A DNA stretch of 64,000 nt from Methyloglobulus morosus KoM1 (GTDB lineage Bacteria; Pseudomonadota; Gammaproteobacteria; Methylococcales; Methylomonadaceae): NCBI RefSeq assembly GCF_000496735.2, contig NZ_AYLO01000051.1, forward strand, positions 31,992-95,991, in the 5' to 3' direction. The notes under the pieces are model-generated. The model was not told where the DNA came from and did no database searches. It saw only the letters and a list, made by a program, of their open reading frames with translations. This document shows, in pieces, positions 1,072-19,552 of the stretch; position 1 is the first letter of the stretch, and every line of letters begins with the position of its first letter. Both the position numbers and the translations under genes were made by a program.

Positions 1072-1099
1072 CCCAGTCATTGAAATCCTGGACGTTAAC

Positions 1100-1759: not shown

Positions 1760-1784
1760 GCCGACGAGCACAAGGAACAGCGAC

Positions 1785-2591
1785 ATGACGGATAGCGACG
1801 GCCTGGGCGAACGTATCCAAAAAGTGCTGGCACGGGGCGGCCTTGGTTCCAGGCGGGAAATTGAACGCTGGATAGAGGAAGGCCGCTTGAAGCTCAACGG
1901 TGCGACCGTTACTTTAGGCACACGCATCAAAGCTGGCGACTACTTGACTGTCAATGACCGCGTCGTGCATTGGGAAAAATTCTCCGTGCAACCCACGCGT
2001 GTGTTGCTTTACCATAAACCCACGGGTGAAGTGGTTTCCCGCCGTGATCCGGAGGGCCGTCCGGTCGTGTTCACGCAATTGCCGAGTTTGGTCGCCTCGC
2101 GATGGATAGCCGTCGGCAGGCTTGACATCAACACATCGGGCTTGTTGCTGGTCACCAATAACGGCGAACTGGCCAATAAACTGATGCACCCCTCCACCCA
2201 AGTCGAACGCGAATATGCCGTACGGGTGTTAGGCGAGATTCCCGATGCCGTCATCGAACGGTTGAAGCAAGGCGTGGAGTTGGAAGACGGCATCGCCAAG
2301 TTTGACGACATCCGGTTTTATGCCGGTGAAGGCGCCAATAAGTGGTATTACGTGACCGTCAAGGAAGGGCGTAACCGCTTGGTCAGGCGCTTGTGGGAAT
2401 CACAAAATGTCGTGGTTAGCCGTTTGATGCGGGTGCGCTACGGGCCCGTGGTGTTGCCGGAGCGGTTAAAATCCCATTCCTTCTACGAATTGGATGCGAA
2501 AGAGCTAGCCCTTCTTTTTGAATTTGCGGGGATGAAAGGGGACGGGACTTATCCGCCCTTTAAACCTGACACCAACAAAACCAACGAGTAG
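1785..2591 (+). CDS. rluB: 23S rRNA pseudouridine synthase RluB
   Basis: RsuA/RluB-family pseudouridine synthase, expected to modify U2605 of 23S rRNA. An N-terminal S4 RNA-binding domain (ERIQKVLARGGLGSRREIERWI) covers about residues 8-60. The catalytic domain follows with VGRLDINTSGLLLVTNNGEL, containing the catalytic Asp in GRLD, and then KEGRNRLVRRLWE. The upstream in-frame extension overlaps scpB and has no homology. The ATG at 1785 has AGGAAC about 8 bases before it and gives 268 residues. A neighbouring family member such as RluE or RsuA is less likely because scpAB-rluB is a standard gene order. Confidence 0.92.
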   Translation: MTDSDGLGERIQKVLARGGLGSRREIERWIEEGRLKLNGATVTLGTRIKAGDYLTVNDRVVHWEKFSVQPTRVLLYHKPTGEVVSRRDPEGRPVVFTQLPSLVASRWIAVGRLDINTSGLLLVTNNGELANKLMHPSTQVEREYAVRVLGEIPDAVIERLKQGVELEDGIAKFDDIRFYAGEGANKWYYVTVKEGRNRLVRRLWESQNVVVSRLMRVRYGPVVLPERLKSHSFYELDAKELALLFEFAGMKGDGTYPPFKPDTNKTNE

Positions 2592-2626
2592 CGAATGGGC
2601 GAATATTTTCTGTCACTCAGCAGAAA

Positions 2627-2857
2627 TTATTCGGCTTTCTCCCCGTCTTCCAAAAGATAAAGGTCTTCTATCAATGTCCTTTCCCCCGGCGTTAACCAGA
2701 TTCGCTGGGCATTTTCTCCCTTGTCTACAGGTTTTGCTTGCAAAATCCGACGGTCGCTGGTTTTTCGTCGCTCACTCTTGATGTTTTTTCCTTCCGGCAT
2801 CTGATTTTTGGGTGATCGACGTCGTTTTTTACGTAAATCAGTTACATTCAAGTTCAT
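2627..2857 (-). CDS. Small basic hypothetical protein
   Basis: A 76-residue protein very rich in Lys and Arg in its first 45 residues (LRKKRRRSPKNQ, SERRKTSDRRI), then an acidic C-terminus (LIEDLYLLEDGEKAE). No known domain is recognised and no membrane segment or signal peptide is present. The start has AGGTTGAG 6-10 bases upstream, a plausible ribosome binding site. It is convergent with rluB and on the same strand as the metallo-beta-lactamase-fold gene upstream of it. The charge split suggests a nucleic-acid-associated or ribosome-associated small protein, but that is only inference. Confidence 0.5.
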   Translation of the reverse strand: MNLNVTDLRKKRRRSPKNQMPEGKNIKSERRKTSDRRILQAKPVDKGENAQRIWLTPGERTLIEDLYLLEDGEKAE

Positions 2858-2964
2858 AACATCTCAACCTATTCCGCCCTATGTCTAAGTCTAGCTGAAA
2901 AAAAGTTTATTGCCGAAAGCCAAGCGTACGACACAAAAAAATCATAAAAGTGCCGCCTATAAGA

Positions 2965-3567
2965 TTACGATAATGAACCTGCCAAAGCCTTAAGCGCATC
3001 GGCGCCTTGATTAAACAATGGCCAGCCATCCCCCACCAGCACCGTCTTTATACCGGGCAAAGCAGCGAGCCGTTTTACGGATTGTTTCGCCAGTGCGATA
3101 TCGGTAAGTTTGGCTTCGGGCAACATGCATAGCTCACCCCCCACATGGGAACGGATTAAATCGCCCGTAATCAAAGTGCTTTGCTCCAAAACCAGCGCAA
3201 GTTCACCCGGTGTTTTTGAACCGTTTAATTCATGCACAAGCAACCCCGGCACAATTTCCTCTTTGTCATGCAGCCAATGGCCGCAAACAATTGGAAAACT
3301 ATCCTTTTCTCGGGCGGGGCCGTACAAGGCGGCACCCGTCACTTTGGCGATATGGAAAGCATCCCGACAATGATCGCTATTAGTGACGACAATATATTTC
3401 GCTCCGCCCAATTGCCGCAAATGGTTTTGGTCGTGCGCCGACAAAGGCAAAGGGTCGATCAGCACGTTGCCTTCCGTACGCACCCAAAGCACACTGTGAA
3501 AATCCAGGTTGCGCTCGACGTTAAATTCCGACCAGCCAAACAAATCTTTTCTATGCAACTGTTTCAT
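2965..3567 (-). CDS. Metallo-beta-lactamase-fold protein with a degenerate metal motif
   Basis: About 200 residues with the layout of a small metallo-beta-lactamase-fold hydrolase: VLIDPLPLSAHDQ, then YIVVTNSDHCRDA where the HxHxDH motif should be, VHELNGSKTPGELALVL, and TLITGDLIRSHVGGEL carrying the later Asp. The first two metal His are replaced (TNSDH), while the DH pair and the TGD Asp remain. Metal binding may be partial or lost, so activity is uncertain. The frame opens earlier with a GTG at 3585, but the ATG at 3567 is preceded by GGAG and gives the better start. Nothing in the neighbourhood identifies a substrate. Confidence 0.72.
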   Translation of the reverse strand: MKQLHRKDLFGWSEFNVERNLDFHSVLWVRTEGNVLIDPLPLSAHDQNHLRQLGGAKYIVVTNSDHCRDAFHIAKVTGAALYGPAREKDSFPIVCGHWLHDKEEIVPGLLVHELNGSKTPGELALVLEQSTLITGDLIRSHVGGELCMLPEAKLTDIALAKQSVKRLAALPGIKTVLVGDGWPLFNQGADALKALAGSLS

Positions 3568-3683
3568 AAAATCTTCTACTCCCACGCTGTAATATAGGAC
3601 GCCTATGATGCTTAACTGTTGTTTGGCATCAATTCCGTTGTTTTGTAAATACGGTTAAACTTTTAAACCACGCGCTAGTTTGG

Positions 3684-4529
3684 CTAATTCACCAAATCCA
3701 CTTTGACCAAAATATGCAGGTTGTTTTGCCTGGATTGGCGGTTATAGGAAAATGTCGTGTTCCCAGCACTTTGTCCGCTTTCGTCAACGCCGCCCAAATC
3801 GACCCATTCGCCCAGGTTGGCCCGGATCGTTGTCTGGGCCTCTTGCGACTGTATTTGGCCTTGCCCGTTGAACCTGTCTGACCATGGCGACACGTCCATC
3901 ACGACTTGTTGACCTACCAGCCTTGGCGTAACCTCAAAACCAGTCGAGGCTTCAACCAATTGGGTTGACTGGGTAACAGCGGGGTAACCATAACCGCCAG
4001 GGTTGACTTGATAATTGGTAATCGGATAAGTATTGCCGACCTTTATGTGGGCGGTTTCGCCTTCTAATGTCCTGATCGTTTGGGTGTTTTGATTGTCGTG
4101 CGTACTGTTGATTTTTGAATTTTGGCCATAAATACGGCCTTGCAATGGATTGCGGTCATTGCCCACATTATATCTAGGGCCTGAAGCGTTAGGTAAGGGC
4201 GTATCGATATCGAAACCGATCCCCGCATTTAACTGCTCGGCAGTGGCATTCCTGCTTTGGATGACGGTGATTAAAAGGTTATTGACCGGATTATCCAGCT
4301 TGCGAATAAGATTAGTGATAGTTTGCAAACGCTCAGGAGTCGTCTTTACGATAATCGAATCACCATTGGCGACGATTTGATCCGTGCTTTCCAGCAAGGG
4401 AATGAGCAAGGGCTGAAATTCGGAGGCAGGACGATTGTAAACGGTGATGATTTCAACTACAGATTCCGCCAGGGATATTGTCGGAATGATAAGCATCAAA
4501 AGCAGCACCGGTAAAGTTGGCTTTTTCAT
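3684..4529 (-). CDS. Exported secretin N-domain (NolW-like) protein
   Basis: A 281-residue protein with a clear Sec signal peptide (KKPTLPVLLLMLIIPTISLA, cleaved near residue 21). Residues 25-95 look like a secretin short N-domain (VVEIITVYNRPASEFQPLLIPLL, then a repeat-like strand pattern ending TNLIRKLDNP). The rest resembles the start of the type II/III secretin core (GETAHIKVGNTYPITNYQV, TGFEVTPRLVGQQVVMDV, ANLGEWVDLGG), but the pore and C-terminal segments expected of a full secretin (500 residues or more) are missing. No type II, III or IV secretion genes lie nearby. It sits 41 bp downstream of glgA on the same strand. Confidence 0.75.
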   Translation of the reverse strand: MKKPTLPVLLLMLIIPTISLAESVVEIITVYNRPASEFQPLLIPLLESTDQIVANGDSIIVKTTPERLQTITNLIRKLDNPVNNLLITVIQSRNATAEQLNAGIGFDIDTPLPNASGPRYNVGNDRNPLQGRIYGQNSKINSTHDNQNTQTIRTLEGETAHIKVGNTYPITNYQVNPGGYGYPAVTQSTQLVEASTGFEVTPRLVGQQVVMDVSPWSDRFNGQGQIQSQEAQTTIRANLGEWVDLGGVDESGQSAGNTTFSYNRQSRQNNLHILVKVDLVN

Positions 4530-4570
4530 AACACACCCAATCGTTTCATCAAACCTGCTATCAGATTAGC

Positions 4571-6004
4571 CTATAAATTCCGATAAAGCATTAAATACTG
4601 CTCCGCGCTGTGCCGCCAGGAAAAATCTTTTTTCATGGCATTGGTTTGGATTGTGGCCCAGGCCTTTTTGTCGCTATACAGGATCATGGCACGTTTGATG
4701 GCTTCCAACAGCGAGCTGGCGCTGGCTTCATTGAAGACAAAACCCGTTGCCGTTCGGTCGGCAATAGTTTCGGGCAAGGTATCGACCACGGTATCGGCCA
4801 ACCCGCCGGTTTTCCTGACAATCGGCAATGTACCGTAACGTTGGCTGTACATTTGGTTCAGTCCGCATGGTTCAAACCGCGACGGCATAAGGAAAACATC
4901 AGAACCTGCTTCAATTAAATGCGCCAATGGTTCGTCGTAACCTAAAGTGATGGCCATCTTGTCAGGGTAGACATGGGCAAGATTCTGCAAGCGCTGCTCA
5001 TAAACTTTGTCGCCTGAACCAAGCAATACCAATTGCATAGGCATGGATAGCATATCAGGCAGGCAGTCGATAATCAGGTCGATACCTTTTTGCTCGACCA
5101 GCCGCCCGATCAAGCCAAACAGGGGGACATGATCATTGACTGGTAAGGCAAACTTACGTTGTATCTCGGACTTGTTATATTGCTTATCGGCTAACGATGC
5201 AATACGGTAATGCTGGGGAATCAACGGGTCGGTTTCAGGGCTCCATACCTCAAGGTCAATGCCATTGAGTATGCCTCTCAGGACATCCTTCCTGTGCAGT
5301 AGCAGCCCCTCCAAACCACAGCCGTATGCTGACGTTTGGATTTCCAATGCATAGGTTGGGCTGACGGTGGTGATATGATCGGCATAAACCAAGCCGCCTT
5401 TGATGAAGGACAGCATGTGGTAAAACTCCAAGCCTTCTGGATGCCACAATTGGCCCGGCAGGCTTAATCCTTGGATACTTTCTGCCGGGAACAAGCCTTG
5501 GTATGCCAAATTGTGGATGGTGAACACGGAAGCGGGAGAGTCGACCTCCAACGACAACAAAGCCGGCACCAAACCACTTTGCCAGTCGTTACAATGGACA
5601 ATATCGGGTTGCCAATCCAGGTTAGCCCTGTTCATGGCCACCTCAACCGCAATCCGACAAAACAGGGCGAAGCGGTCGGCATTGTCCGGCCAGGAATTTC
5701 CCAGCCCATCTAAGTAAGGGTTGCCTGGACGATGATAGAATTCAGGATAATCGACCAGCCAGACGGTTATCTCGCTGTCCGGCAACTGCGTTTCAAGCAG
5801 GTTGACGTCACGGTTATCCACGCGCAACGAACATAAAAAACGCACCTCCTTATCCGACTTAATGCCCTGATAGTTAGGCAATATCAAGCGCACGTCCTGG
5901 GACAGTTCAGCAAGGGCTTTGGGCAAGCTACCAGACACATCGGCAAGTCCTCCTGTTTTTATCAGGGGATGGGCTTCACTGGAAACAAACAATATTTTTT
6001 TCAT
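4571..6004 (-). CDS. glgA: Glycogen synthase (ADP-glucose)
   Basis: GT5 glycosyltransferase that extends alpha-1,4-glucan from ADP-glucose. The N-terminal motif KTGGLADV (from residue 17) binds ADP-glucose. The C-terminal half contains the second nucleotide-binding region IGRLVEQKGIDLI and the catalytic SRFEPCGLNQMYSQRYGTLPIVRKTGGL block. At 477 residues it has the normal bacterial length. The ATG at 6004 follows the glgB stop by 72 bp, so glgB-glgA are probably cotranscribed. No glgC (ADP-glucose pyrophosphorylase) is in the window. Confidence 0.96.
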   Translation of the reverse strand: MKKILFVSSEAHPLIKTGGLADVSGSLPKALAELSQDVRLILPNYQGIKSDKEVRFLCSLRVDNRDVNLLETQLPDSEITVWLVDYPEFYHRPGNPYLDGLGNSWPDNADRFALFCRIAVEVAMNRANLDWQPDIVHCNDWQSGLVPALLSLEVDSPASVFTIHNLAYQGLFPAESIQGLSLPGQLWHPEGLEFYHMLSFIKGGLVYADHITTVSPTYALEIQTSAYGCGLEGLLLHRKDVLRGILNGIDLEVWSPETDPLIPQHYRIASLADKQYNKSEIQRKFALPVNDHVPLFGLIGRLVEQKGIDLIIDCLPDMLSMPMQLVLLGSGDKVYEQRLQNLAHVYPDKMAITLGYDEPLAHLIEAGSDVFLMPSRFEPCGLNQMYSQRYGTLPIVRKTGGLADTVVDTLPETIADRTATGFVFNEASASSLLEAIKRAMILYSDKKAWATIQTNAMKKDFSWRHSAEQYLMLYRNL

Positions 6005-6076
6005 AGATGATTCTTGACGATCATTTAATTAACATGCATGGCGGATAATCCCGCCATCATCGTAATAATGGGGTTG

Positions 6077-8251
6077 TTAAAGTTTCAGGATGATCGCACC
6101 CAAAGGCGGCAAAGAAACACAAATCGAATGGGCCTGGTTCATCCAGGGGACAGGCTCAGACAACACTTCGCCATTGCCGACATTGCTGCCGTCGTAATAC
6201 TTGGAATCCGAATTGAATATCTCCGTGTAAACACCCGCTTTAGGCACCCCGATACGATAAAATTCGCGGGGGACGGGCGTAAAATTGAGGATAACACAGA
6301 TATCCTCATGCTCGCTTTTACGGCGGTAACTGATGATGGATTGCTGCACGTCATGGCAATCGATCCATTCAAAACCGCGATGGTCAAAATCAAAGCGATG
6401 CAATGCCGGATGCGCTTTATAAAGGTAGTTTAAGTCTTTCACCAGTGCTTGTATGCCTTGGTGATGCGGATAATCGAGTACATACCAATCCAATGCCTTA
6501 TTAAAGCTCCATTCCGTCCCTTGACCGAACTCGCAGCCCATAAACAATAATTTCTTGCCGGGATAGGTAAACATGAATGTGTACAAGAGCCGTAAATTGG
6601 CGAAACGTTGCCAGTCATCACCGGGCATCTTATTCAGTAAAGAACCTTTGCCGTGAACCACCTCATCATGGGAAAACGGTAGGGTAAAATTTTCGGTAAA
6701 CGCATACAGCATACCGAACGTGAGCTGGTCGTGATGGTACTTTCGATGCACGGATTCCTGGCTCATATAGGACAGCACGTCATGCATCCAACCCATATTC
6801 CATTTCATGGAAAAGCCCAAACCTCCTGTCCAGGTTGGACGGGTAACTTGCGGCCAGGACGTGGATTCTTCCGCCATGATGACCGTACCGGGATGCTGGT
6901 CGTGGGTAACCGAATTCAATTCCCTTAAAAAATCAATTGCTTCCAGATTTTCATTGCCGCCATAACAGTTAGGCAGCCAGTCCCCATCGTTACGGGAATA
7001 ATCCAGGTACAACATGGACGCAACCGCATCCACCCGCAAGCCGTCAAGATGGAATTCTTCCAGCCAGAAAATGGCGCTGGCCAGCAAGAAGTTTTTGACC
7101 TCATTGCGGCCATAGTTATAAATCAACGTACCCCAGTCACGGTGTTCGCCCTTGCGGGGGTCTTCGTGTTCGTATAAAGCGCTACCATCAAACCGGGCAA
7201 GGGCAAAGGCATCCTTGGGAAAATGCGCAGGGACCCAGTCCAGGATCACGCCTATGCCATTTAGGTGGAAGGTATCGACAAAATACCGGAAATCGTCGGG
7301 CGAACCAAAGCGACTGGTCGGGGCAAAATAGCCCGTAGTCTGGTAACCCCAGGAAGCGTCCAGTGGATGCTCGGTGATGGGCAGTAATTCGATATGCGTA
7401 AAGCCCAGTCGTTTGACGTATTCAACGAGTTGGCTTGCGACTTCGCGGTAATTGTAGAACTGCCCTTGATTATCTAGTCGCCAAGAACCGAGATGGACTT
7501 CATAGATCGACATTGGTTCATGTAGCCAATGGTTGCCAGTCCGTTTGGCAAGCCATTGTCCGTCCTCCCAAGCATAAACGCCCTCTTTGACCACAATAGA
7601 TGACGTATTCGGGCGAAGTTCAAACTGTTGTCCGAAGGGATCGGTTTTCACCAATATTTCATTGCTGAAACGATTCAATATTTCGAATTTATACAGGCAA
7701 CCTTCGGTTAAGCCCGGAACGAACAATTCCCAGAGCCCGCCGCCGCCCAAGCTACGCATGGGGTGACATCGACCGTCCCAGTGGTTGAAGTCGCCAACCA
7801 CACTGACACGTCCGGCGTTAGGCGCCCAGACAGTGAACAGGACACCATCAATTCCGTCGGCTGTGTGTAGATGGCCTCCCAGCTTTTGGTAAATATGCCA
7901 ATGCCTACCTTCTCCAAACAGGTGCTGGTCAAATTCCGGCAATTGCACTTGAAAATCGTAGGGATCGTAATCGATATGGCTAATGCCATTTTTATCGAGC
8001 CATGCAAGTTGATAATGTTGTGGCAGCAATTCTTTGTCGACGGCGTATTCAAAAAAATCGGTGCCTTCTATGCGTTGCACAAGGGCATTATCGTGATAGA
8101 GCTTAACGTTTTCAGCATAAGGCAGGAAAACCTTGATATACGTTTGGTTGTTTTTTTGATGCCGGCCTAACACTGAAAAAGGATCGTGGTGTCTGGCTTC
8201 GGCAATTTTGATGGATTCCGCGTCCAGCTGGTAGTCGTTTGTGTTTTTCAC
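6077..8251 (-). CDS. glgB: 1,4-alpha-glucan branching enzyme
   Basis: GH13 branching enzyme that introduces alpha-1,6 branches in glycogen. The order is an N-terminal CBM48-like module ([10 protein letters not shown] and [20 protein letters not shown]), then the (beta/alpha)8 barrel. Catalytic residues by position are Asp408 in [12 protein letters not shown], Glu461 in IMAEES and Asp529 in [10 protein letters not shown]. The C-terminal beta domain ends with PLGAIILKL. At 724 residues it is full length. The gene is divergent from glgX across 292 bp that hold no convincing gene and presumably both promoters. Confidence 0.96.
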
Positions 8252-8543
8252 CGTCTGATCTCCTTAGTGTAGTAAAATCAATTTCAAGTTATGGTAACAA
8301 AGAAAGGCCTTAGTCATTGAACGAAAAATAGTATCTACGGGTTTCAGGTGCTGAAAAATGCCCGGATATTTCTCGTCCATCCTATGCTCAACCCAACCTG
8401 CAATAAGATGGCGTACCAAATTCGAGATACTGAAATACTTAAAAGCCATGTTTGATGCCGCATGAAAAAACGATAACAGGTTATTGCAGCCTAAATGTAG
8501 GCAATGAATTACAATATGACTTGATTTAAAGCCAGATACCCTT

Positions 8544-10655
8544 ATGCAAAAAAAAGAGTACGAAATAAAACCTGGAAATTGTTATCCCTTTGGTTGCAAA
8601 CATTACGGCGGCGGCGCTAACTTTTCTATCTTTAGCCGATATGCGACAGATGTCGAATTGTTGCTGTTCGAAACCGCCGAAGACGTAGAACCTTTTTTGG
8701 TAATATCGTTGCAGAAGAAAATCAATCGCACTTTTTATTACTGGCACGTCTTTATTGTCGCGTTACCTTTAGGCACTTGGTATAACTGGCGTATCGACGG
8801 CGCCAACTTAACCCGCGAAAACGGCTTTAGCTTCGATAAAGAAAAGCACCTGATCGACCCTTGGGCACGGACGGTCAGCCAGAAAAACTGGAGCCGCAAA
8901 GCGGGCTGCAAACCGGGCGATAACAGCCGTACCGCAATGCGCTGTTGTGTCGTGGACGATCGCTATGACTGGGAAGGCGACCTCCCGATGCGCATCAGTA
9001 GTGAAAAATCGATTATTTACGAATTGCATGTCGGCGGCTTTACGCGGCATTCATCCGCAAAAGTGGCTCATCCAGGCACGTTTTCCGGCTTGATTGAAAA
9101 AATTCCTTATCTACAGCAATTGGGTATTACCCATGTTGAACTGTTGCCTGTTATGGCTTTCGATGAACAAGATGTTCCTCGTAATACCTACGACCTGGGG
9201 TTAAAAAATTATTGGGGCTACAGTACGCACAGTTTCTTCAGCCCCCATCCCGGCTATTGCGTAACGCCCGAAGAAGGCACTCATATCCAGGAATTTCGCG
9301 ACTTAGTCAAAGCCTTACATAAGGCAGGAATCGGCATTATCATGGATGTGGTTTTCAACCACACTGCCGAATCCGGCGCGATAGGGCCCATAATCAATTT
9401 TAAGGGGATAGGCGGAAAAATTTTTTATCACCACGACAAATTTGATAAGACCATTTTTATCGATTACACCGGCTGCGGTAATACGGTCAACGCCAATCAT
9501 CCCCTGGTGGCAAGCTTTATCATCAGTTGCCTGGAATATTGGGTCAATGAAATGCATGTCGATGGCTTCCGCTTTGATTTGGCTAGCGCATTGACCCGGG
9601 GTGAGCATGGCGAAGTCCTTGAAGACCCTCCAGTATTGTGGGGAATCGAATTGTCGGAGCAACTTTTTAAGACCAAGTTAATTGCCGAGGCATGGGACGC
9701 GGCTGGACTGTATCAAGTCGGCAGTTTCCCCGGTTACCGCTGGGGGGAATGGAACGGGAGGTATCGCGATGTCATTAGGCGCTTTGTGCGTGGCGATGCG
9801 GGCCTATTATCGGAAGTCGCCACCCGCATTTGTGGCAGCAGTGACCTCTATGAACATCAGGGGCGTTTGCCTATTAGCAGCATTAATTTTGTCACCTGTC
9901 ATGACGGATTTACCTTATATGACTTGTTCAGTTACAACGAAAAAAAGAATCTAGCCAATGGCGAAAACAACCTAGATGGCTGTAACGAAAATTACAGTTA
10001 CAACTGCGGCATAGAGGGGGATACCGAAGACAGCAGTATTTTGCAACTAAGAAAACAACAGGCAAAAAATGTTTTTGCGATTTTGTTGCTCAGTCAGGGC
10101 GTTCCCATGTTACTTGCTGGCGACGAGTTTTTAAATAGTCAAATGGGTAACAATAATGCCTATTGCCAGGATAATGGGCTATCCTGGCTGGACTGGGATA
10201 CGGCGGCGCAAAATGCCGATATGGTCAATTTTGTCCAACAGATGATCGCACTTCGTAAAAGGCACCCTTCGATCATGAGAAGGCAGTTTCTGACAGGCAA
10301 CAATGTTGAAGGCAAAAATATCAAAGACATAAGCTGGCATGGGACACAGATAGATCAGCCTCAATGGAACGAACCGGAAACTAGGCTATTGGCTTATACC
10401 TTGGCTGGAATGCATGCCGATGAAGCGGATTTGCATATCGTAATGAATATGTCGGATGAAAAAGCGTCGGTAGATGTGCCATTGATCAGCGGTAAAGAAT
10501 GGTGCCTGGCTGTTGACACGTCATTGCCGTCATTTCACGAGGTTATTCCCCCTCGACACCAACAGTTGATAAAAAATCAAACCTATACTGTAAATTCTAA
10601 AACGATTGTTGTCCTCGAAAACAGGGGCTCTCATTCAAATTTGTTTGTGCCATAA
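8544..10655 (+). CDS. glgX: Glycogen debranching enzyme GlgX
   Basis: GH13 isoamylase-type enzyme that hydrolyses alpha-1,6 branches of limit dextrins. The N-terminal CBM48-like domain (GGANFSIFSRYATDVELLLFE) is followed by the catalytic barrel, with Asp345 in VDGFRFDLASAL, Glu382 in LIAEAWDAAG and Asp454 in FVTCHDGFTLYDL as the three acidic residues. The GlgX signature GDEFLNSQMGNNNAYCQDN follows. At 703 residues it has normal length. It is divergent from glgB-glgA, so the three enzymes form one glycogen locus. The next gene is beyond an apparent insertion at about 10.8 kb. Confidence 0.95.
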   Translation: MQKKEYEIKPGNCYPFGCKHYGGGANFSIFSRYATDVELLLFETAEDVEPFLVISLQKKINRTFYYWHVFIVALPLGTWYNWRIDGANLTRENGFSFDKEKHLIDPWARTVSQKNWSRKAGCKPGDNSRTAMRCCVVDDRYDWEGDLPMRISSEKSIIYELHVGGFTRHSSAKVAHPGTFSGLIEKIPYLQQLGITHVELLPVMAFDEQDVPRNTYDLGLKNYWGYSTHSFFSPHPGYCVTPEEGTHIQEFRDLVKALHKAGIGIIMDVVFNHTAESGAIGPIINFKGIGGKIFYHHDKFDKTIFIDYTGCGNTVNANHPLVASFIISCLEYWVNEMHVDGFRFDLASALTRGEHGEVLEDPPVLWGIELSEQLFKTKLIAEAWDAAGLYQVGSFPGYRWGEWNGRYRDVIRRFVRGDAGLLSEVATRICGSSDLYEHQGRLPISSINFVTCHDGFTLYDLFSYNEKKNLANGENNLDGCNENYSYNCGIEGDTEDSSILQLRKQQAKNVFAILLLSQGVPMLLAGDEFLNSQMGNNNAYCQDNGLSWLDWDTAAQNADMVNFVQQMIALRKRHPSIMRRQFLTGNNVEGKNIKDISWHGTQIDQPQWNEPETRLLAYTLAGMHADEADLHIVMNMSDEKASVDVPLISGKEWCLAVDTSLPSFHEVIPPRHQQLIKNQTYTVNSKTIVVLENRGSHSNLFVP

Positions 10656-10848
10656 ACGGCTTGTGTTTTTAAAGCTAAACCGTAATAGTGAACACGGGTA
10701 TCAGGTTAACCATCGAATTGACCCGATGGGTTATGGATTTTGGGTTATTTTTTGTATGCCTTGTTGTAACGGGTTGTTGTATTGTCATTTTATCAAGCAG
10801 GATGGCTGATAAAACCTAATGCGCCGGTATTGAGTATTCTCACGATTT

Positions 10849-10911
10849 TGGCCACTCATTTTCATAAGCTGACCACTAAAACCTTTATTGACCGCTGATT
10901 TCATACTGACC
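10849..10911 (+). repeat. Left terminal iteron array
   Basis: TGACC-type words begin at 10849 (as TGGCC), 10870, 10889 and 10907, with steps of 21, 19 and 18 bp. The segment 10866-10911 aligns with the reverse complement of about 15029-15073 at roughly three quarters identity with one gap, by eye. The spacing of nearly two helical turns suggests side-by-side binding of a recombinase or regulator on one face of the DNA. Confidence 0.6.
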
Positions 10912-11064
10912 AGTCAAATCAGCGATTGCCAGAATACGGCCAAAAGCGATCCGCCGTTAACCAAGGCACTTGCATCCGCACCTCCCCTAAAGCAGTCATA
11001 TAGTAAACTTGTTTAACCTCTTTTCAATGATTCGAAGCCACAGCAGTTTAATATCATCCACTGA

Positions 11065-14000
11065 TTAACAACTATAGAGTACAAGGAGATCGTCGACCGA
11101 GCCAACATGCGTCTTAGATAAAGCTTCGATTTTTGAGTACTGCATAGGTACAACTCCGCTACAAACAAGGCATGAGACGATGTTGGGCTCTTGAATGCCT
11201 GTAAAGCGTTGTAGCCGCTCAAGACTTCGTTCGAGGATAGAAACGCGGATCAAGTGCTTTTTTAAACTATCAGGCTTTCCATCAACATCTGCACCTTGAA
11301 AACTGGAAAGCAATGCCGCAATCTCTGAATAGTTTCGAGCCAACGACAGGTCTTTACACTCAATTACCAAAACGTCTTGTCGATCCGGCCTCCAAGCAAG
11401 GACATCGACATCACCGAAGTCCTGTACCGTCTTTTGGTTGAGTAGTTCTGGAATTTCAATGTTTTCCCGAATTTGCCAGCCAGCATCCAACAAACGTTGC
11501 GCAACCTCGGCGTTGAAGCTATGCCCCTCGCTAGCCTTTCCCCACCAAGTATTTTTCATTTCGTCGGACTGAAAAAAGGACTGGCCAAAGCGGCCACTAT
11601 AAGCTCCATCAACGACATAAGCAAAACCATTTCGGAGTGCAGCAGGGGCAATAAGCAATAGTGGATCATCGCTTTCGTCTACTTTCAGAATCGGACGAGT
11701 CGCGAATGACAACCTTCTGCCGAACCGCCATGGATAGATGTCTTTCATCGCAAAGCCTTTCGATGGTTTATCCCAGCGGTGACGAGTTTTAAGCGAAAAT
11801 TGCTCAAGGAACTTTGCTGCAGCATCTCCTGAAACTTGGTCTGAGCAAACCAAAGAAAAATATTCGCGTTGTGAAATACTAAAGATTGCGGAATGATCGG
11901 TGATGCCTTTATTTTCTAAGGCATCAATTATGTTACGGGCCTCATCCAAGTCAAATCCCACCTCGACTTTCCAGATGCGCCAGAATTCTTCGTCAATTTG
12001 GCCTTTACTTGTGGAAGTAAACACCGGTTCATCGTAATTCTTTTTTTGCAAAGGGGCGTTGGCGATGAATTTCTCACCTATCACGCGCGACAACATTGGC
12101 TGAACAACCAGCTCCCCAAAATCATCACGAAACAATATGTCGCCAAGAGAGGAGATTGTAAGTTCAGGAGATAGCGCGTTATAGTGAATCGCATCAGAGA
12201 GGCCTCCGATGCGAACAAGCAAGGAAGCCCGCGCAATCAATTTGCTCAATTCGATGTCCGATAGTTGTGCTCCATCGTTAAAAGGGCATACGCACACGGC
12301 CATCTCAATCAATACGCGGCTCGCAATGCCAGCACCGGCAAACTTCGATGTCTGCTTCACGTATCTCTGAATAGTCGTATCAACTTGGCCATGAAGCCCG
12401 ATTATCGCAGCTGATGTTCTCCTCCAGTGATTTTCTTCCACACTCGCTTTTTCACTGTTAGCTAATAACCGCTTTAGTGTCGAAATACGCTCGACGGAAA
12501 TAAGCATTTCGCAGATTTCTGCTAGCAAAACATCGACGACTTTTCCGAGAAAGCTGGTACAGGCTTCCCGCCCTTCAATTTTGTTGCCGTGCACTCGATC
12601 ATGGACACGCCACCCCAGACCTATTTTCGCGGCTGCATCGTCAATCTCGTCAATGATGACAAGCTTTTCCGGTAGTGTATCATGCACATAGTCAATGAAG
12701 TGGTGAGCATGAATAACATGGAAACTACGGGCTTCCTGATTTTGAACGACATTCCTCGTAATCTCTTCGGCGTCTCCATCGATATCTGTCACGTTTAAAA
12801 GGTGCAGGAAGGCACGCGAAACATTGAGGACAAATAGCCGCTCTGCGACATTCTCTGCAATGCCAAAACCGCTTATAAAACCGGCTTTGAAGACCGCCTT
12901 AATGGCATTTGGCTCCTCCTCATGCTCGTTGACTACGCAGAATTGAGTAAGGTCATCGAGCTTAGGTTTTTGTCCAGGCTCGTTAGGCGGATCAATATCT
13001 TGAAACTCAACATGCACTTTTAAATTTGTTGCCTTTGTCAGATGCCCTGCGTACCTATCGAGTTTGCTGCCGATACGATGCAGCCATTCGTTTGCCATCT
13101 CCCATAGCCGGAAGGTAATTTCTCTATCGGAGATATTCGGCGTTTCTAGTGAAAGCCATAGCTGGAACTTACCTTCATAGACGGACATAAACTTCCCATC
13201 CAGCGCATGGCCCATTGAAGCATAGAGTCGCCGAGCACTCTCGCTGGTAAAAAATGGGTTAGGCCCTAAATGCTGAACATCGTGCCAGACACCGGTATTA
13301 TCGACTGCGCGATGGCGATCATAGCCAAGGTCGGCCTCAGCTCGCACTCCCTTAAGAAGGTTAATAGGAAGACTGAGCATCAAAGGCTGCTCGGGCGAGA
13401 CTTCCTCGTCTAAGAGCTGGGCGTGCGGCACAAAGTGTCCGTCATTGCTGCGCACCCAGCCTATGAGGTTCAGTATGCCGTTCGGGTTGAAAATACGCAC
13501 TCCAGTCTTCGTCACGGCCTCAAGTCCATCTTGAATGCGCCAGAAATAGCTGGGATTCATATCACCAAGCCAACTAAGGCGAACGAGGTCGGCTGCGGAC
13601 ATGCTTTCGAAACGCCATTTGGGATGATTCACCTCTATTTCTTGAGTAACATAGCCTTTCCCCCAACCGCAGCCGACCAGGATTATCAAGCCTTCTTTAA
13701 AATCGGGGCGTTTCGAAAATTGCTCTATCGCGCTGCTGATTGATTCCTGCAAAGCGTCTGTAAGCGCGCCTTCGTCTTGATACTCAGACTTAAAACCGCC
13801 ATCGGCATGCGTTTCCACGGAAGTCAGAAACAAGTGGTAAGAAATGAAATAACCTCGATCGACCTCAATTGCGAATATAGACAAGCGATGCGGGCCTAAT
13901 TTTTTCCATAAGACGGGGGATCGCATCTGGCCACCCAGCAGTGGCGTATTGAAGAATATCGCTGAATAGTTCTTTGCAAGCGCACTATTGAAAGCATCAA

Positions 14001-14865
14001 CCTGCTCAATTTTAATGATATGCGATATGACAAAATCTCTGGCCGCAACAGATAGTGCTGAGGGTAAGGCAACAGAGAGGTGTGTGTTTGATTGGAGTAT
14101 AAGCGGACAGCGATCCAAGTCGCTGCATCCAATTTGTTCCGCGACTAGGCCGTTTTTCATCTGGTGATCAAAAAGGAATGGTGCAATATCGGCTTTAGTA
14201 ATTCCTCTCTCACTAAGCACCTCAAATGAGATGGTAACCCGTGAGATTAGAGCATTTCGTCCAGGAAGTTTGCGAGGAGAAAGTGCTGTATGTCGCTCAT
14301 CCGATCCAAGCTGATAACGGCTCAATTCGGCATTTTCACAAACAATTTCAGATATCATGAGAAGTGCGCGAAAGCTTCTTTTAATCCGCCCGAATCTCCC
14401 GGAATCAGGCATTGTTGAAACGACTTCCAAAACACATTGCGTGTAGAAGCCAGCTGCTTCCCAGACGCCTTCAACAAGACGATAGTTTCCGTTGCGGTCA
14501 GTTACGAGTGATACAAAGACATCTTCCGCCGGGTCTTCACCCACTACGCATCGAGATTTTCCAATTTGGAAAAACCAGCGCACCGCATTATCAATCTTAG
14601 GTTTCTTCCGACCTTTACAGAAAATCACAGCCAATGCGACCAGTATTTCAAGCCTGATACACTGCGTTTGGTATTCTGGGAGTGTCAAAAGACCTGCCAG
14701 AAGCGGAATGCTAATGTTGGGATCGTAGTGGGATAGATCACGGACGAGTGCCTTGTTGTCGTCTGCAATCTCTTGGATGGTTACAGATAGTGAAGCCCAT
14801 CGCGTTTGCTCATCAAAAAATGACTTAAGTGTTTTCCAGTCGATATTCGCATCATCATGTGACAT
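11065..14865 (-). CDS. Large hypothetical protein with C-terminal PD-(D/E)XK nuclease-like domain
   Basis: 1266 residues; the family is not recognised. The last 160 residues have a restriction-endonuclease-like layout: a helix (GHSFNAEVAQRLLDAGWQI), then Asp1152/Asp1154 in FGDVDVLAW and Glu1169-x-Lys1171 in VLVIECKDL, the D...ExK core of PD-(D/E)XK nucleases. The first 1100 residues show no signal peptide, no membrane helices and no complete P-loop. VGCGWGKG (397-404) and VIIDEIDD (736-743) only superficially resemble Walker motifs. The start has GGAG 11 bases upstream. It stands alone between inverted repeats, which suggests a transferred single-gene defence or DNA-processing protein; this function is inferred, not shown. 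Confidence 0.8.
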   Translation of the reverse strand: MSHDDANIDWKTLKSFFDEQTRWASLSVTIQEIADDNKALVRDLSHYDPNISIPLLAGLLTLPEYQTQCIRLEILVALAVIFCKGRKKPKIDNAVRWFFQIGKSRCVVGEDPAEDVFVSLVTDRNGNYRLVEGVWEAAGFYTQCVLEVVSTMPDSGRFGRIKRSFRALLMISEIVCENAELSRYQLGSDERHTALSPRKLPGRNALISRVTISFEVLSERGITKADIAPFLFDHQMKNGLVAEQIGCSDLDRCPLILQSNTHLSVALPSALSVAARDFVISHIIKIEQVDAFNSALAKNYSAIFFNTPLLGGQMRSPVLWKKLGPHRLSIFAIEVDRGYFISYHLFLTSVETHADGGFKSEYQDEGALTDALQESISSAIEQFSKRPDFKEGLIILVGCGWGKGYVTQEIEVNHPKWRFESMSAADLVRLSWLGDMNPSYFWRIQDGLEAVTKTGVRIFNPNGILNLIGWVRSNDGHFVPHAQLLDEEVSPEQPLMLSLPINLLKGVRAEADLGYDRHRAVDNTGVWHDVQHLGPNPFFTSESARRLYASMGHALDGKFMSVYEGKFQLWLSLETPNISDREITFRLWEMANEWLHRIGSKLDRYAGHLTKATNLKVHVEFQDIDPPNEPGQKPKLDDLTQFCVVNEHEEEPNAIKAVFKAGFISGFGIAENVAERLFVLNVSRAFLHLLNVTDIDGDAEEITRNVVQNQEARSFHVIHAHHFIDYVHDTLPEKLVIIDEIDDAAAKIGLGWRVHDRVHGNKIEGREACTSFLGKVVDVLLAEICEMLISVERISTLKRLLANSEKASVEENHWRRTSAAIIGLHGQVDTTIQRYVKQTSKFAGAGIASRVLIEMAVCVCPFNDGAQLSDIELSKLIARASLLVRIGGLSDAIHYNALSPELTISSLGDILFRDDFGELVVQPMLSRVIGEKFIANAPLQKKNYDEPVFTSTSKGQIDEEFWRIWKVEVGFDLDEARNIIDALENKGITDHSAIFSISQREYFSLVCSDQVSGDAAAKFLEQFSLKTRHRWDKPSKGFAMKDIYPWRFGRRLSFATRPILKVDESDDPLLLIAPAALRNGFAYVVDGAYSGRFGQSFFQSDEMKNTWWGKASEGHSFNAEVAQRLLDAGWQIRENIEIPELLNQKTVQDFGDVDVLAWRPDRQDVLVIECKDLSLARNYSEIAALLSSFQGADVDGKPDSLKKHLIRVSILERSLERLQRFTGIQEPNIVSCLVCSGVVPMQYSKIEALSKTHVGSVDDLLVLYSC

Positions 14866-14974
14866 TAGAATTTTTTCTCCTTGATTTTTAGTTGATGGTG
14901 CGAATATAGCGGATGCAATTTTGAAAACAGGCCGGTATCACGTAAAAGCGAATTGCCGCAATAGACCAAACAGC

Positions 14975-15090
14975 GGTCATTAAAGCACATCACCTTAAAG
15001 ACAGATAAGGGTCGATAGCTCCACTTGCGGTCAACATGAGAATGAGCGGTCAGTATGATTTTACTGGTCAGCCTAAATAGTTTTTGGTTT
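14975..15090 (-). repeat. Right terminal iteron array
   Basis: GGTCA words (TGACC on the minus strand) begin at 15066, 15048 and 15029, with weaker copies at 15010 (GGTCG) and 15085 (TGGTT) and another exact GGTCA at 14975. The steps of 18-20 bp mirror the left array, and the 14975 copy lies 54 bp from 15029, three steps of 18. It lies upstream of the start of the large gene at 14865, so it could also act as an operator for that gene. Confidence 0.6.
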
Positions 15091-15118
15091 TAACGGCAAC
15101 CGATCGATGGTTTTATCG

Positions 15119-15538
15119 TTACGGGTTTTGCAAGAATTTCCTTAAGCCGGACATTAGCCCGTATGCAATATGTGAAATACCTGTGTACAGGAAAAACACA
15201 GGAATGCGGTCATCGATAGCAACATCGTTGATCTTTCCATAAAAAGCCAGTGAACCCATCATCATAATCAAGAAATATCCCACAAAGAGCATCATCTTGG
15301 GCTGTTTGGTGACCAAACAATACCCACAGACCACTATTTCTGTCATTGCTAGGTAGAGCAGGGCAATCCTTAGATTATTGTGCATGACGCCAAAAAGATC
15401 TTCATTGAACTTGAAAATACTGTAATTCTCAGTAATCGCGGATAGGCCTCCGTAGACCAAGACCAACACCGAGATATAAAAATTGGCATCCACAAAAAAT
15501 TTTACCACTTGCATGATTTTAGTCTCGATTTCGCTCAT
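15119..15538 (-). CDS. Small four-helix membrane protein, hypothetical
   Basis: 139 residues with about four hydrophobic segments: FYISVLVLVYGGLSAI, LRIALLYLAMTEIVVCGYCLV, MLFVGYFLIMMMGSLAFYG and IPVFFLYTGISHIAYGLM. No family is recognised. The ATG at 15538 has AAGG six bases upstream, so translation is likely. Its stop lies about 20 bp from the outer right end of the candidate mobile unit, so that unit appears to have inserted just 3' of this gene. Function is unknown. Confidence 0.6.
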   Translation of the reverse strand: MSEIETKIMQVVKFFVDANFYISVLVLVYGGLSAITENYSIFKFNEDLFGVMHNNLRIALLYLAMTEIVVCGYCLVTKQPKMMLFVGYFLIMMMGSLAFYGKINDVAIDDRIPVFFLYTGISHIAYGLMSGLRKFLQNP

Positions 15539-15838
15539 AAACTACCTTAAAAAGAAGCATCTCCCAAACACGTTGGGAGGGCTATAGAGGAGGGCATTAG
15601 GATAAAAGGCATATTCACTAGGCGTTTATCTCATCTGTTTGGATGTTTGCCGATCTTGCAATTGGCAATACGACGAATTTGATTGCGTTCGCATTCATAT
15701 TTAATGTTAGCCACAACTTACGGCTCAAGTGTCATCTTGTCAAAATATATTTAAACAATACTTGAACAGGCACTTAAAAACCAGTGAAAATCCACCTAGA
15801 GGGCAGAAATGATTATGCAAAACAAGGGAAGCTGTTTT
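15539..15838. other. Non-coding spacer, nothing recognised
   Basis: About 300 bases upstream of the small membrane protein gene and downstream of the photolyase gene, both on the minus strand. It contains short palindromic AT-rich stretches but no gene, RNA or clear terminator that I can support. The promoter of the membrane protein gene would be expected at its left end. Confidence 0.4.
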
Positions 15839-17221
15839 TTATGTGTTTGCCGAATCCAATGCCTTGTAACATTGCCTGGCTACTTGGCTTTCACGGCTAT
15901 GGTCGACCATTGGTGCCGGGTACAGGCTGCCTGAATATCTACTGTACCAGTTATGGATAGCGTTTACTGGCATGCTTGTGAGTTCGGGTATCCAGCGATA
16001 GATATAACGGCAGTCTGGATCAAACTTTTGTTGTTGTAACCAAGGGTTGAAAATCCTGAAATACGGTTGGGCATCGCAGCCCGTTGAAGCGGACCATTGC
16101 CAGTTACCATTGTTAACGCAAGGATCATAATCGATAAGGTGCTGGGCAAAATAACGTTCGCCCCAGCGCCAACTGATGTGCAGGTCTTTAGTCAGGAACG
16201 ATGCTGCGACCATCCGTACGCGATTGTGCATGAAACCGGTTGTGTTCAGCTCGCGCATCCCTGCATCGACCAGAGGAAATCCTGTATTACCCTCAGACCA
16301 TCGTCGAAAAGCATCCTGATCGTCTTTCCAGACGAGCTTGTCGTATCGGCTATGAAAAGCCTTGCCAAATACGTGCGGGAAATGGAAAGCGATATGGGTG
16401 AAAAAGTCTCGCCAGTATAATTGCCTAAGCAAAGGGTGTTCTGGCCCCAATTGTTGGATTATCGCAGAATAGGCTTCTCGTATTGAACAAGTTCCAAATT
16501 TTAAGTGTGCCGACAGTCGGCTGCTGGCGTCCTGCGCAGGGTAATCGCGCAATGCTTGATAATCAACGTGCTTGGCTAACGCGTTTAATAAGGCAATGGC
16601 CAGTTGACGACCGCCGGTCATGCCATTTACAAGCGTTTCGGTTGGAGGGAAAACCGATAGGTCGATGTTAATTTTCTCCTCAATATGGATAAAATTTGCC
16701 CTTGCTAATGGAGTGGGCAGGGCGACTGGGAATAGTCGGGCATTGTTGTAAAAGGCGGTGAAAACTTGGTAAGGGCTGCCGTCACTTTTAAGCGCTTGTT
16801 CGGGTTCTATCAGCAAACAATCGGGGACAACGTGAAAGTCTATGTTTAAGTCTTGGCAAACTTGAGCCAATTCGCCATCGCGCATACGGCTGAATGGCGT
16901 GTAATCACGGTTAATGAACACCGCTTGTATCCGATATTGTTGGGCAGCCTGTTTTATGACCGTGATAGGCAGGTCGACATAAAACGCAAGCTTGAAACCT
17001 AGGGACAGAAATTCATTTTGGAGATCCCTTAACGATTGCCGCATAAAATGCAAAGCGGGCTTACTTTGGTAGGGATGGGGTTGAATTTGCCTAGGGTCAA
17101 AAATGAAGCAGGGAAGGACAGCGGAAGAACAGCTTATCGCCTGATTGAGCGCGCTGTTGTCATGAATCCGCAGGTCACGCCTAAAAATGAATAAGGAGGT
17201 CGTGTACCGGTTTTTATGCAT
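15839..17221 (-). CDS. phrB: Deoxyribodipyrimidine photo-lyase
   Basis: Class I CPD photolyase that repairs cyclobutane pyrimidine dimers with blue light. The N-terminal antenna domain (SLFIFRRDLRIHDNSALNQA) is followed by the FAD-binding helical domain. Signatures are LYWRDFFTHIAFHFP, GFPLVDAGMRELNTTGFMHN, RMVAASFLTKDLHISWRWGE and DPCVNNGNWQWSASTGCD. At 460 residues it is normal for the family. The gene precedes nothing obviously related; the DUF1499 gene lies 28 bp upstream on the same strand. FAD/MTHF use follows from the family, not from the sequence alone. Confidence 0.94.
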   Translation of the reverse strand: MHKNRYTTSLFIFRRDLRIHDNSALNQAISCSSAVLPCFIFDPRQIQPHPYQSKPALHFMRQSLRDLQNEFLSLGFKLAFYVDLPITVIKQAAQQYRIQAVFINRDYTPFSRMRDGELAQVCQDLNIDFHVVPDCLLIEPEQALKSDGSPYQVFTAFYNNARLFPVALPTPLARANFIHIEEKINIDLSVFPPTETLVNGMTGGRQLAIALLNALAKHVDYQALRDYPAQDASSRLSAHLKFGTCSIREAYSAIIQQLGPEHPLLRQLYWRDFFTHIAFHFPHVFGKAFHSRYDKLVWKDDQDAFRRWSEGNTGFPLVDAGMRELNTTGFMHNRVRMVAASFLTKDLHISWRWGERYFAQHLIDYDPCVNNGNWQWSASTGCDAQPYFRIFNPWLQQQKFDPDCRYIYRWIPELTSMPVNAIHNWYSRYSGSLYPAPMVDHSRESQVARQCYKALDSANT

Positions 17222-17249
17222 AGGTGGCCTGACTATTTACATAAAACCA

Positions 17250-17690
17250 CTACCCCAACAAAACATGCAGTTTTCGTAATTGCGTCCTGATAGCTTCGAT
17301 GCGCTTACGGTTGACGCCAAAATCGCTGTGTCCCCGGCGCGATGCTGAACGTATATGAATCAATCCTGCCTTCGCATCAAGGATAGCGTCGATATCATCG
17401 ACAAATTGCAACACTAAACTGGTTGCTTCGGCATGGAGCGTGTTTTCCGTCTCGTGGGTCAGGATCATACGGTCATGCGTTATGATGGCTTTACGTAATG
17501 CTTGCCAGGCCAGCGTTGGGTCGCCAGAAATCTTAAAAGGCGCAATATAATGCCCTTCATCCAGTGCTTGGCTGGATACGCAGTTCGGCGTATCTTTACA
17601 AGGCGGCAACTTCTTTATGGCAGGCGTGTTGGCGTACGTTGTCATACTGGCAATCGTTACGAGAATAAAAAAAATGAGATTAAGTTTCAT
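17250..17690 (-). CDS. DUF1499 family exported protein
   Basis: 146 residues with an N-terminal signal peptide (LNLIFFILVTIASMTTYA). The family features are LPPCKDTPNCVSSQA near residue 30 and, at the C-terminus, LVLQFVDDIDAIL followed by IHIRSASRRGHSDFGVNRKRIEAIR, which is the characteristic DUF1499 block. The family has no assigned biochemical function. The gene lies 28 bp upstream of phrB on the same strand. DUF1499 proteins and photolyases are sometimes neighbours in proteobacteria, but no joint role is established. Confidence 0.85.
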   Translation of the reverse strand: MKLNLIFFILVTIASMTTYANTPAIKKLPPCKDTPNCVSSQALDEGHYIAPFKISGDPTLAWQALRKAIITHDRMILTHETENTLHAEATSLVLQFVDDIDAILDAKAGLIHIRSASRRGHSDFGVNRKRIEAIRTQLRKLHVLLG

Positions 17691-18322
17691 AAGTAGATTG
17701 TTTAGGTACTAATTTACGGTTGAATTTGTCCATGTCAAGGAAAGATTGAACGTATAAAATTATGTCCATGGTCATTCAAGCCATTAATGCTATATTACCT
17801 ATTGCTGCTTAATCGCTCAAACACATTCTTTCAAGCCTGGCCAGACTCAGGGTGATGCAAACTATATTTTCGGCGGCATCGAATGTGTTGGTAGAGAACA
17901 GTCCATCAAGACGATTTCGGCTTAACGCATTGCCGATCCAACGGGAATAGCCGTAACACGGATTCAAGGTGGTGGACGTACCTTGATGCTTGGATTGATA
18001 GACGCTCAACACGTATATTATGTTTGTGACCGTCCGCAGATATTGATCCTCACTAGCGTCCGCGATTTAGGCAGGCCGATATTCGGGCTAAAGCGGTATC
18101 GACAGGTTTCGTGCCATGCCTTCGGATTTGGTCGGCGAGCACATTTATTTCCCAAACTGGCGGTCACGGCGACTTCCGCCTTCCGAATAAGTTGCCGGTT
18201 CCGTCCGCTCGATGTCACCCAACATACGATTTCCGAGTTAAACCACCTCCGGCTTTGCAGAGGGTGATTTAACTGTCGGTTTCAACTATATAATCTGGGT
18301 TGACCAACAAGGACAATGCGGC
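17691..18322. other. Long non-coding stretch with a palindromic unit
   Basis: About 630 bases between pfp and the DUF1499 gene. Small open frames exist on both strands (for example 17809-18012 minus and 17983-18267 plus), but none has a recognisable domain, a good ribosome binding site or gene-like context. The right edge holds a strong inverted repeat at 18237-18273. The stretch could be the remains of an insertion. Confidence 0.4.
18237..18273. repeat. Palindromic unit downstream of pfp
   Basis: The arms GTTAAACCACCTC (18237-18249) and GAGGGTGATTTAAC (18260-18273) pair with one mismatch and one bulge around a ten-base loop. It lies 50 bp beyond the pfp stop on the 3' side, so it could act as a transcription terminator for pfp or be a REP-like dispersed repeat. 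There is no uridine run in either direction, which argues against a classical intrinsic terminator. Confidence 0.5.
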
Positions 18323-19552
18323 TTAATGCCCGACAGCCACTTTCGACCCTTTCGTTTGGCCGATTTCAGACAATGTTTGATTGAACCAGGCGGCATCGAT
18401 ATCGAACGGTTTGCCGCCTTTGATGCGCGGGAATTCAATCGCCCTTAGCACATTGCCGCGATCCTCGTCGTGACCGATAACTCCAGATTCGCGACGGAAA
18501 GCACATTCGACGGCGAGGTCGGCACAGGACTTGATAAGGCGGATATCTTCCACGTTGGAAGCGGCGGCCCGTGCAAAATAACCGGATTTTTGCACTAAAG
18601 TTTTTTCTGCGCCGATCATTTGCGCGAATTGTTCGCCAAACCATTTGCCGGGGTTGACGGCATCCAACTTGACGTGACCGAAGGCATCGCGCGGAACTTC
18701 TTGCCCTTTGGCCTGCATTTCCGCGACGATGGATTCAACGCCAGCACCTTCGGAAATAAAGATATTGACGCAATCCACTTTGTCCATGACCGCACGTAGG
18801 CGTTTAGCTTCCGCGTCCAAGTCAATCGCCATTTCGGGGATAAATACACCGTGGACTTCGTAAGTATCCCGTCCCAGCCCCAGTTCGGGCAGCCATTCGG
18901 CACGATCCAACAACTTGCGATATTCCAGTGCAGTTGCCGCCGTAAGCCAGCCGCAACTGCGTCCCATGACTTCATGTACGATCAACATGCGTGGATTGGA
19001 GTTATTTTCCGCAACGACATTCCAGAAATAGCGTGCGCCCTGTTCCGCAGCCGTCCATGCGCCCAGTGATTGCTTGATTGGGAAAACGTCGTTATCGACG
19101 GTTTTGGGCAAGCCGATGACAGTCAAGCCATAGCTGTTGCTTGCTAGGAACGCGGCTAGATCGGCGGCAGCGGTGTTGGTGTCGTCACCGCCGATGGTGT
19201 GCAGGATGTCCACGCCGTCTTTAACCAATTGGTCGGCGGCGACTTTTTGTGGATCTTCCCCTTCTTTGACAAGGCCGCGTTTCACGCAGTCTTTGACGTT
19301 AGTGAGTTTGACACGGCTGTTGCCGATGATTGAACCGCCGAATTTATGTAACAGGCCGGCTTTCTCGCGTATTTCTGACGTAACCTTATAGGAATCGCCT
19401 AATAACAAGCCTTTATAACCGCTGCGGTAGCAAATAATTTCAATCGAAGGGTCGATTTCGCTGTAACGCTCGATAAGGCTGCCGATGGCGGAGTTAAGGC
19501 ACGGGGCTAAACCACCGGCAGTGAGAATGGCGACTTTTTTGGGTTTATTCAT
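18323..19552 (-). CDS. pfp: Pyrophosphate-dependent 6-phosphofructokinase
   Basis: Catalyses the reversible phosphorylation of fructose-6-phosphate with pyrophosphate. The GGDDTNTAA motif near residue 120 has Asp where ATP-dependent enzymes have Gly, which marks PPi use. PKTVDND provides the catalytic loop and MGRSCGWLTAATAL follows. At 409 residues the length fits the PPi-dependent group. Methanotrophs of the Methylococcales are known to rely on such an enzyme in the RuMP pathway. The gene is transcribed alone. Confidence 0.92.
   Translation of the reverse strand: MNKPKKVAILTAGGLAPCLNSAIGSLIERYSEIDPSIEIICYRSGYKGLLLGDSYKVTSEIREKAGLLHKFGGSIIGNSRVKLTNVKDCVKRGLVKEGEDPQKVAADQLVKDGVDILHTIGGDDTNTAAADLAAFLASNSYGLTVIGLPKTVDNDVFPIKQSLGAWTAAEQGARYFWNVVAENNSNPRMLIVHEVMGRSCGWLTAATALEYRKLLDRAEWLPELGLGRDTYEVHGVFIPEMAIDLDAEAKRLRAVMDKVDCVNIFISEGAGVESIVAEMQAKGQEVPRDAFGHVKLDAVNPGKWFGEQFAQMIGAEKTLVQKSGYFARAAASNVEDIRLIKSCADLAVECAFRRESGVIGHDEDRGNVLRAIEFPRIKGGKPFDIDAAWFNQTLSEIGQTKGSKVAVGH

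Follow-up and report, generated by a model that had tools for sequence, protein, structure and literature searches.

Among single-gene anti-phage systems, Shedu is a defence built on a PD-(D/E)XK nuclease, and upx, reportedly described by Gao et al., is likewise a one-gene system carrying a PD-(D/E)XK domain. In PMC10855318, which refers to Gao et al. 2020, Upx is tabulated under 'Nuclease Activity-Nucleic Acid Degradation' with presence in 3 of the 100 strains of the panel. A structure is available as PDB entry 9WUF, titled 'Cryo-EM structure of Upx' with the molecule name 'Restriction endonuclease' and released on 2026-02-11, for which a literature search found no publication. A description of the trigger and the substrate of Upx was not found either in the literature covered, and as this coverage was partial, published accounts may exist.

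The locus described here lies in a window, meaning the whole stretch of 64,000 nucleotides of Methyloglobulus morosus KoM1 DNA that was analysed, where a gene encoding a 1266-residue protein is located between glgX (ending at 10655) and a gene for a 139-aa protein plus a photolyase gene. The reading frame is real according to the ORF list and its translation, and the GGAG preceding its ATG is a probable ribosome-binding site as read from the DNA (Table 1). This protein is Upx, a catalogued single-protein anti-phage defence, since it is matched by the PADLOC profile PDLC02221 (2051.5 bits, residues 1-1262), by the NCBIfam model NF042954.1 'anti-phage protein Upx' (2039.7 bits, residues 19-1261, exceeding the equivalog cut-off of 1900) and, using phmmer, by 9WUF (residues 6-1261, 1060.8 bits). 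All 15 sequences compared, comprising the window protein and 14 relatives, are recognised by each of the two Upx profiles at E <= 0.01, with the 1900-bit cut-off compared for the window protein only. The original prediction had placed the protein in an unknown family, with about 1100 upstream residues matching nothing, and this has to be given up in view of two profile libraries whose Upx models span nearly the full length and of a solved structure. The family may have escaped recognition because Pfam has no match, as no Pfam family was obtained for the 1266-aa protein at E <= 0.1. Thus, an apparent unknown is settled as Upx, and with its identity already known the finding is largely ordinary.

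Table 1. Positions of the upx gene, its candidate functional elements and its surroundings in the window
Feature	Position	Strand	Basis or remark
upx CDS, 1266 aa	11065..14865	minus	ATG at 14865; PADLOC and NCBIfam Upx profiles
Putative ribosome-binding site GGAG	14877..14880	minus	Read from sequence, 11 nt upstream of ATG
Predicted PD-(D/E)XK nuclease core, residues 1115-1236	11158..11523	minus	AlphaFold model; resemblance to known nucleases by VIA-align (highest Z about 9)
Candidate catalytic codon D1154	11404-11406	minus	Identical in 15/15 sequences
Candidate catalytic codon E1169	11359-11361	minus	Identical in 15/15 sequences
Candidate catalytic codon K1171	11353-11355	minus	Identical in 15/15 sequences
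Block shared with M. tundripaludum L001 7851-11931	10933..15015		89.7% identity, blastn
Inverted repeat, left arm	10865..10911	plus	Imperfect; TGACC motifs about 19 nt apart
Inverted repeat, right arm	15029..15075	minus	Pairs with 10865..10911

The likeness to Upx is near-full-length and includes a similar length, the fold and the C-terminal nuclease, at about 40% identity to 9WUF in Foldseek alignments, with the difference that the window protein is encoded by a lone gene between inverted repeats. The fold was compared using AlphaFold models of the two halves, which are of middling confidence (pLDDT 67.9 and 72.8, the latter for residues 560-1266, from seven sequences each). In both cases 9WUF was the sole Foldseek hit at E <= 0.001 (1.1e-47 and 6.8e-55), and VIA-align gave Z 36.2 (rmsd 9.1, 611 residues aligned) for the N-terminal and Z 37.4 (rmsd 6.2, 647 aligned) for the C-terminal half-model, far above every other row. 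At this confidence, both half-models have the overall fold of 9WUF, and the C-terminal half-model additionally contains a core of the PD-(D/E)XK type.

Other known systems resemble the window protein in parts. Shedu SduA is present in the fold list of the C-terminal half at Z 6.2, but PADLOC at E <= 0.1 gives the protein no name other than Upx. The CRISPR-linked nucleases Can2, Cdn1 and Card1 have a similarly folded PD-(D/E)XK domain (Z 6.9-9.0), whereas the N-terminal half scores only Z 4.2-4.5, below background, against Can2 and Cdn1. Unlike Avs and other STAND NTPases, Upx has no P-loop in sequence tests, the Walker A motif GxxxxGK[ST] being absent from 15/15 sequences, which bears out the original statement that complete ATPase motifs are missing. 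Across the same 15 sequences, Pfam at E <= 0.1 named solely DUF234 and Mrr_cat, in one member each; a PADLOC match to PDC-S02 (2/15 members, best E 0.0087), an NCBIfam match to TIGR04317.1 (1/15 members) and ferritin chains in the structure search (E 0.0055 and worse) are likewise weak hits.

For the N-terminal part, neither Foldseek nor VIA-align gave a clear structural relative except 9WUF. A second nuclease fold in this half was considered but is not supported, as FokI, Nt.BspD6I, EcoT38I, RPB5 (RNA polymerase chains E) and a Shedu nuclease domain score Z 4.1-6.5, below the background of about 8. Receptors and zincins at low Z in the fold lists were taken as chance arrangements. Residues about 285-475 (window 13440-14013) exhibit a low-Z likeness to restriction-endonuclease folds that is not accompanied by sequence support: when the profile of the C-terminal module was compared with slice 285-475 and with 25 slices sliding over the remaining sequence, the probability was at most 2.1%. 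From the model, this region is a possible degenerate second nuclease-like domain.

At the C-terminus, FGDVDVLAW and VLVIECKDL are both found in the order claimed originally, and the predicted module has the αβββαβ order in the model of residues 560-1266 (protein numbering being model residue + 559). Its predicted elements are a helix at 1115-1127, strands at 1131-1137, 1152-1158 and 1164-1172, a helix at 1200-1213 and a strand at 1228-1236, the second strand carrying D1154 and the third carrying both E1169 and K1171. The module resembles Cdn1, Can2, FokI and BstEII at Z 8.2-9.0, just above the background of 7-8 stated for VIA-align. Concerning the proposed catalytic set of Asp1152/1154, Glu1169 and Lys1171, conservation of D1154, E1169 and K1171 throughout the alignment supports these three. 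D1152 is replaced by N in one row and E in another, so that of the two aspartates D1154 is more likely to be the catalytic one. Judged by residue conservation, the PD-(D/E)XK active site composed of D1154, E1169 and K1171 is intact. Narrowing of the likely catalytic residues in this manner allows exact mutants to be defined.

The alignment consists of the window protein with 12 relatives of 18-88% identity and two of 15-16%. Seven columns are invariant in 15/15 (E854, L1025, P1058, G1151, D1154, E1169 and K1171), a list weighted towards the C-terminus, as the first 400 residues are wholly or largely missing from four rows; in the 11 rows with an N-terminal part, the invariant columns number 36, with E110, D111 and P112 among them. 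Two Upx-like proteins, at loci L007 and L010 (genomes G373 and G844), give BLAST alignments confined to some 340-350 residues towards the C-terminus, with the triad kept, and may perhaps represent a wider superfamily with exchanged sensors. The relative on S. meliloti pHRB800 (L013, 8025-10636) is annotated as two overlapping genes and is possibly broken.

The explanation of Upx function that we favour, and consider fairly probable, is that of a nuclease gated by infection, in which the large N-terminal part controls the C-terminal module. The first ~1100 residues would keep the nuclease inactive, contact of the N-terminal part with a product of phage infection would switch it on, and the activated C-terminal module would then cut DNA of the phage and perhaps also of the host. 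Such gating is probably required, because scans of the window found no methyltransferase or partner and a permanently active nuclease would be harmful to the host. The design originally proposed, a large N-terminal region fused to a terminal nuclease in a single-gene anti-phage system, gains support from the Upx identity and the predicted fold. A single-gene layout is also seen in the block conserved with M. tundripaludum, which contains no other large non-overlapping ORF in this one pair of loci.

Alternatively, the N-terminal part could recognise a feature of incoming phage DNA, for instance a modification or the structure of an end, and Upx would cut only that DNA with no infection-triggered gating involved. 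The molecule name given to 9WUF is in line with such direct restriction, and FokI, Nt.BspD6I and EcoT38I are among the next rows for the N-terminal half-model, but only at Z 5.4-6.3, below the VIA-align background of about 8. Moreover, Pfam, PADLOC and NCBIfam scans of window ORFs (by PADLOC at E <= 1e-10 for the 49 other ORFs) named no DNA methyltransferase, which, as far as the window is concerned, may speak against direct restriction. Direct restriction is regarded as rather unlikely, and the infection-triggered form as about twice as likely. A housekeeping role as a host DNA-repair nuclease would agree with the adjoining photolyase block and with the resemblance of the C-terminal module to Holliday-junction resolvases (Z 7.0-7.6). 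However, none of the seven other genomes of the genus (two of them < 90% complete) has a upx match, and four have a photolyase match, which the 139-aa gene adjoins in three (G001, G004 and G007); in the fourth (G006), the stretch examined ends before the position of this gene. Retention of these neighbours in three genomes where no upx match was found, together with the occurrence of the 4.1-kb block among other genes in M. tundripaludum, renders a repair function highly improbable.

The distribution of upx is patchy, a pattern typical of accessory genes and in line with the favoured explanation. A match was found in 1/150 other relatives, in 1/368 others of the class sample (weak) and in 4/397 others of the phylum sample, two of these weak and one from the same genome as the class-sample match. 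A pattern search, which finds close relatives, gave 4 genome-contig loci, the best from M. tundripaludum at 88% protein identity. Upx was further detected in 6/72,556 plasmid records and at 3 loci of the viral collection, where one match is both short and weak, with 0/50,697 phage records matching by tblastn. Megablast with a fragment of one relative's locus (L012) gave no Upx DNA in E. coli genomes, by a method that would miss distant copies.

Between glgX and the photolyase block, upx looks like a horizontally acquired small mobile cassette. Within window positions 1-26000, only the block listed in Table 1 aligns by blastn to the M. tundripaludum locus, and the flanks differ. Movement of the gene as a small unit is suggested because the 88%-identical protein resides there inside a block of ~4.1 kb with other flanks. 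The inverted repeats flanking the window copy also suggest a mobile cassette, and the M. tundripaludum alignment ends just inside both arms. Of six inverted pairs present in 10650-15160, three link one edge to the other, and two of those three belong to a single repeat. Alignment of the two flanks (~47 bp) has 38 matches in 48 columns by a count by eye and scores 42, a value reached by 0/2000 dinucleotide shuffles (maximum 26) and by 0/1180 other same-distance window pairs (maximum 36), these flanks having been chosen after the repeats had been seen. The inverted repeats are thus more than chance. The flanks of the M. tundripaludum copy are different and, by eye, contain a direct repeat.

The pattern TGACCRSTNAN{5,12}TGACC, built from the two flanks and hence matching them by design, has 4 hits in the genome itself, all being the two flanks (control 2). 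Across the family sample of 91 genomes, which includes this one, the pattern was hit 120 times and the control 139 times, so that it marks no wider element family. Other patterns tried for a repeat family were discarded: TGACCRSTNAWWTTCATA with up to 3 mismatches has 2 window matches versus 2.00 expected by chance, CGACCCN{2,6}GCGGNCA has 3 genome hits versus 2 in the control and 0 in the window, and GACCGCTN{3,8}GGCCG has 0 in the window. When the genome was searched with the DNA of each flank, only the flank itself was found; as even the other arm was missed, the resolution of this search does not suffice to rule out similar copies. A one-gene cassette whose inverted arrays of ~19-nt-spaced TGACC resemble the ends bound by transposases, and which is mobilised in trans by a transposase encoded outside it, is a speculative and doubtful reading. 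As a lead, the mobile boundary is minor and only mildly new, with the inverted repeats providing a testable boundary.

The original prediction also referred to an island-like position, which stands in part. PADLOC at E <= 1e-10 named no defence gene among the 49 other window ORFs, its only hits being two of GlgB type and one of desaturase type, and the window thus shows no defence island; on the other side, the gene looks inserted, and in some other genomes defence genes are found near it. At the M. tundripaludum locus (L001), integrase-domain genes at 1066-2214, 2141-3868 and 6275-7420 all lie upstream of upx, an ORF with no Pfam match sits between the second and the third, and a CBASS cyclase at 18243-19118 follows about 6.4 kb downstream of upx, 1 of 10 neighbours scanned matching PADLOC. 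Hence, upx there is in an apparent island spanning 1066-19118.

Around the homologues in general, 82 of 124 neighbouring ORFs were scanned jointly and matched 81 PADLOC families at E <= 1e-10, a count of families in which many represent the same protein again. Avs2, ShosA, AbiEii, MADS genes, HamB and another Upx are among the 25 families listed. Pfam found transposases and integrases in the same 82, along with housekeeping genes, for example tRNA synthetase and HPPK. When ten larger or nearer neighbours were scanned singly, 3 had PADLOC matches and 7 had none. The three matches are an Avs2-like protein (L015 1137-5363), which on a Deinococcus plasmid lies immediately upstream of a distantly related Upx, mad3 in L045, and in L014 a helicase of the HamB (Hachiman) kind. 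All these neighbour matches are raw counts.

The host itself is probably a methane (or ammonia) oxidiser, since its genome has three PmoA/AmoA-family (PF02461) matches over the cut-off, as compared to 0/14 control genomes. That the nearest Upx comes from Methylobacter tundripaludum agrees with this, although a mobile gene gives no proof. Beside the glycogen genes, the window also encodes a 281-aa secretin-domain protein (3684-4529), and in the congener G001 a longer secretin-like ORF (442 aa) adjoins glgX.
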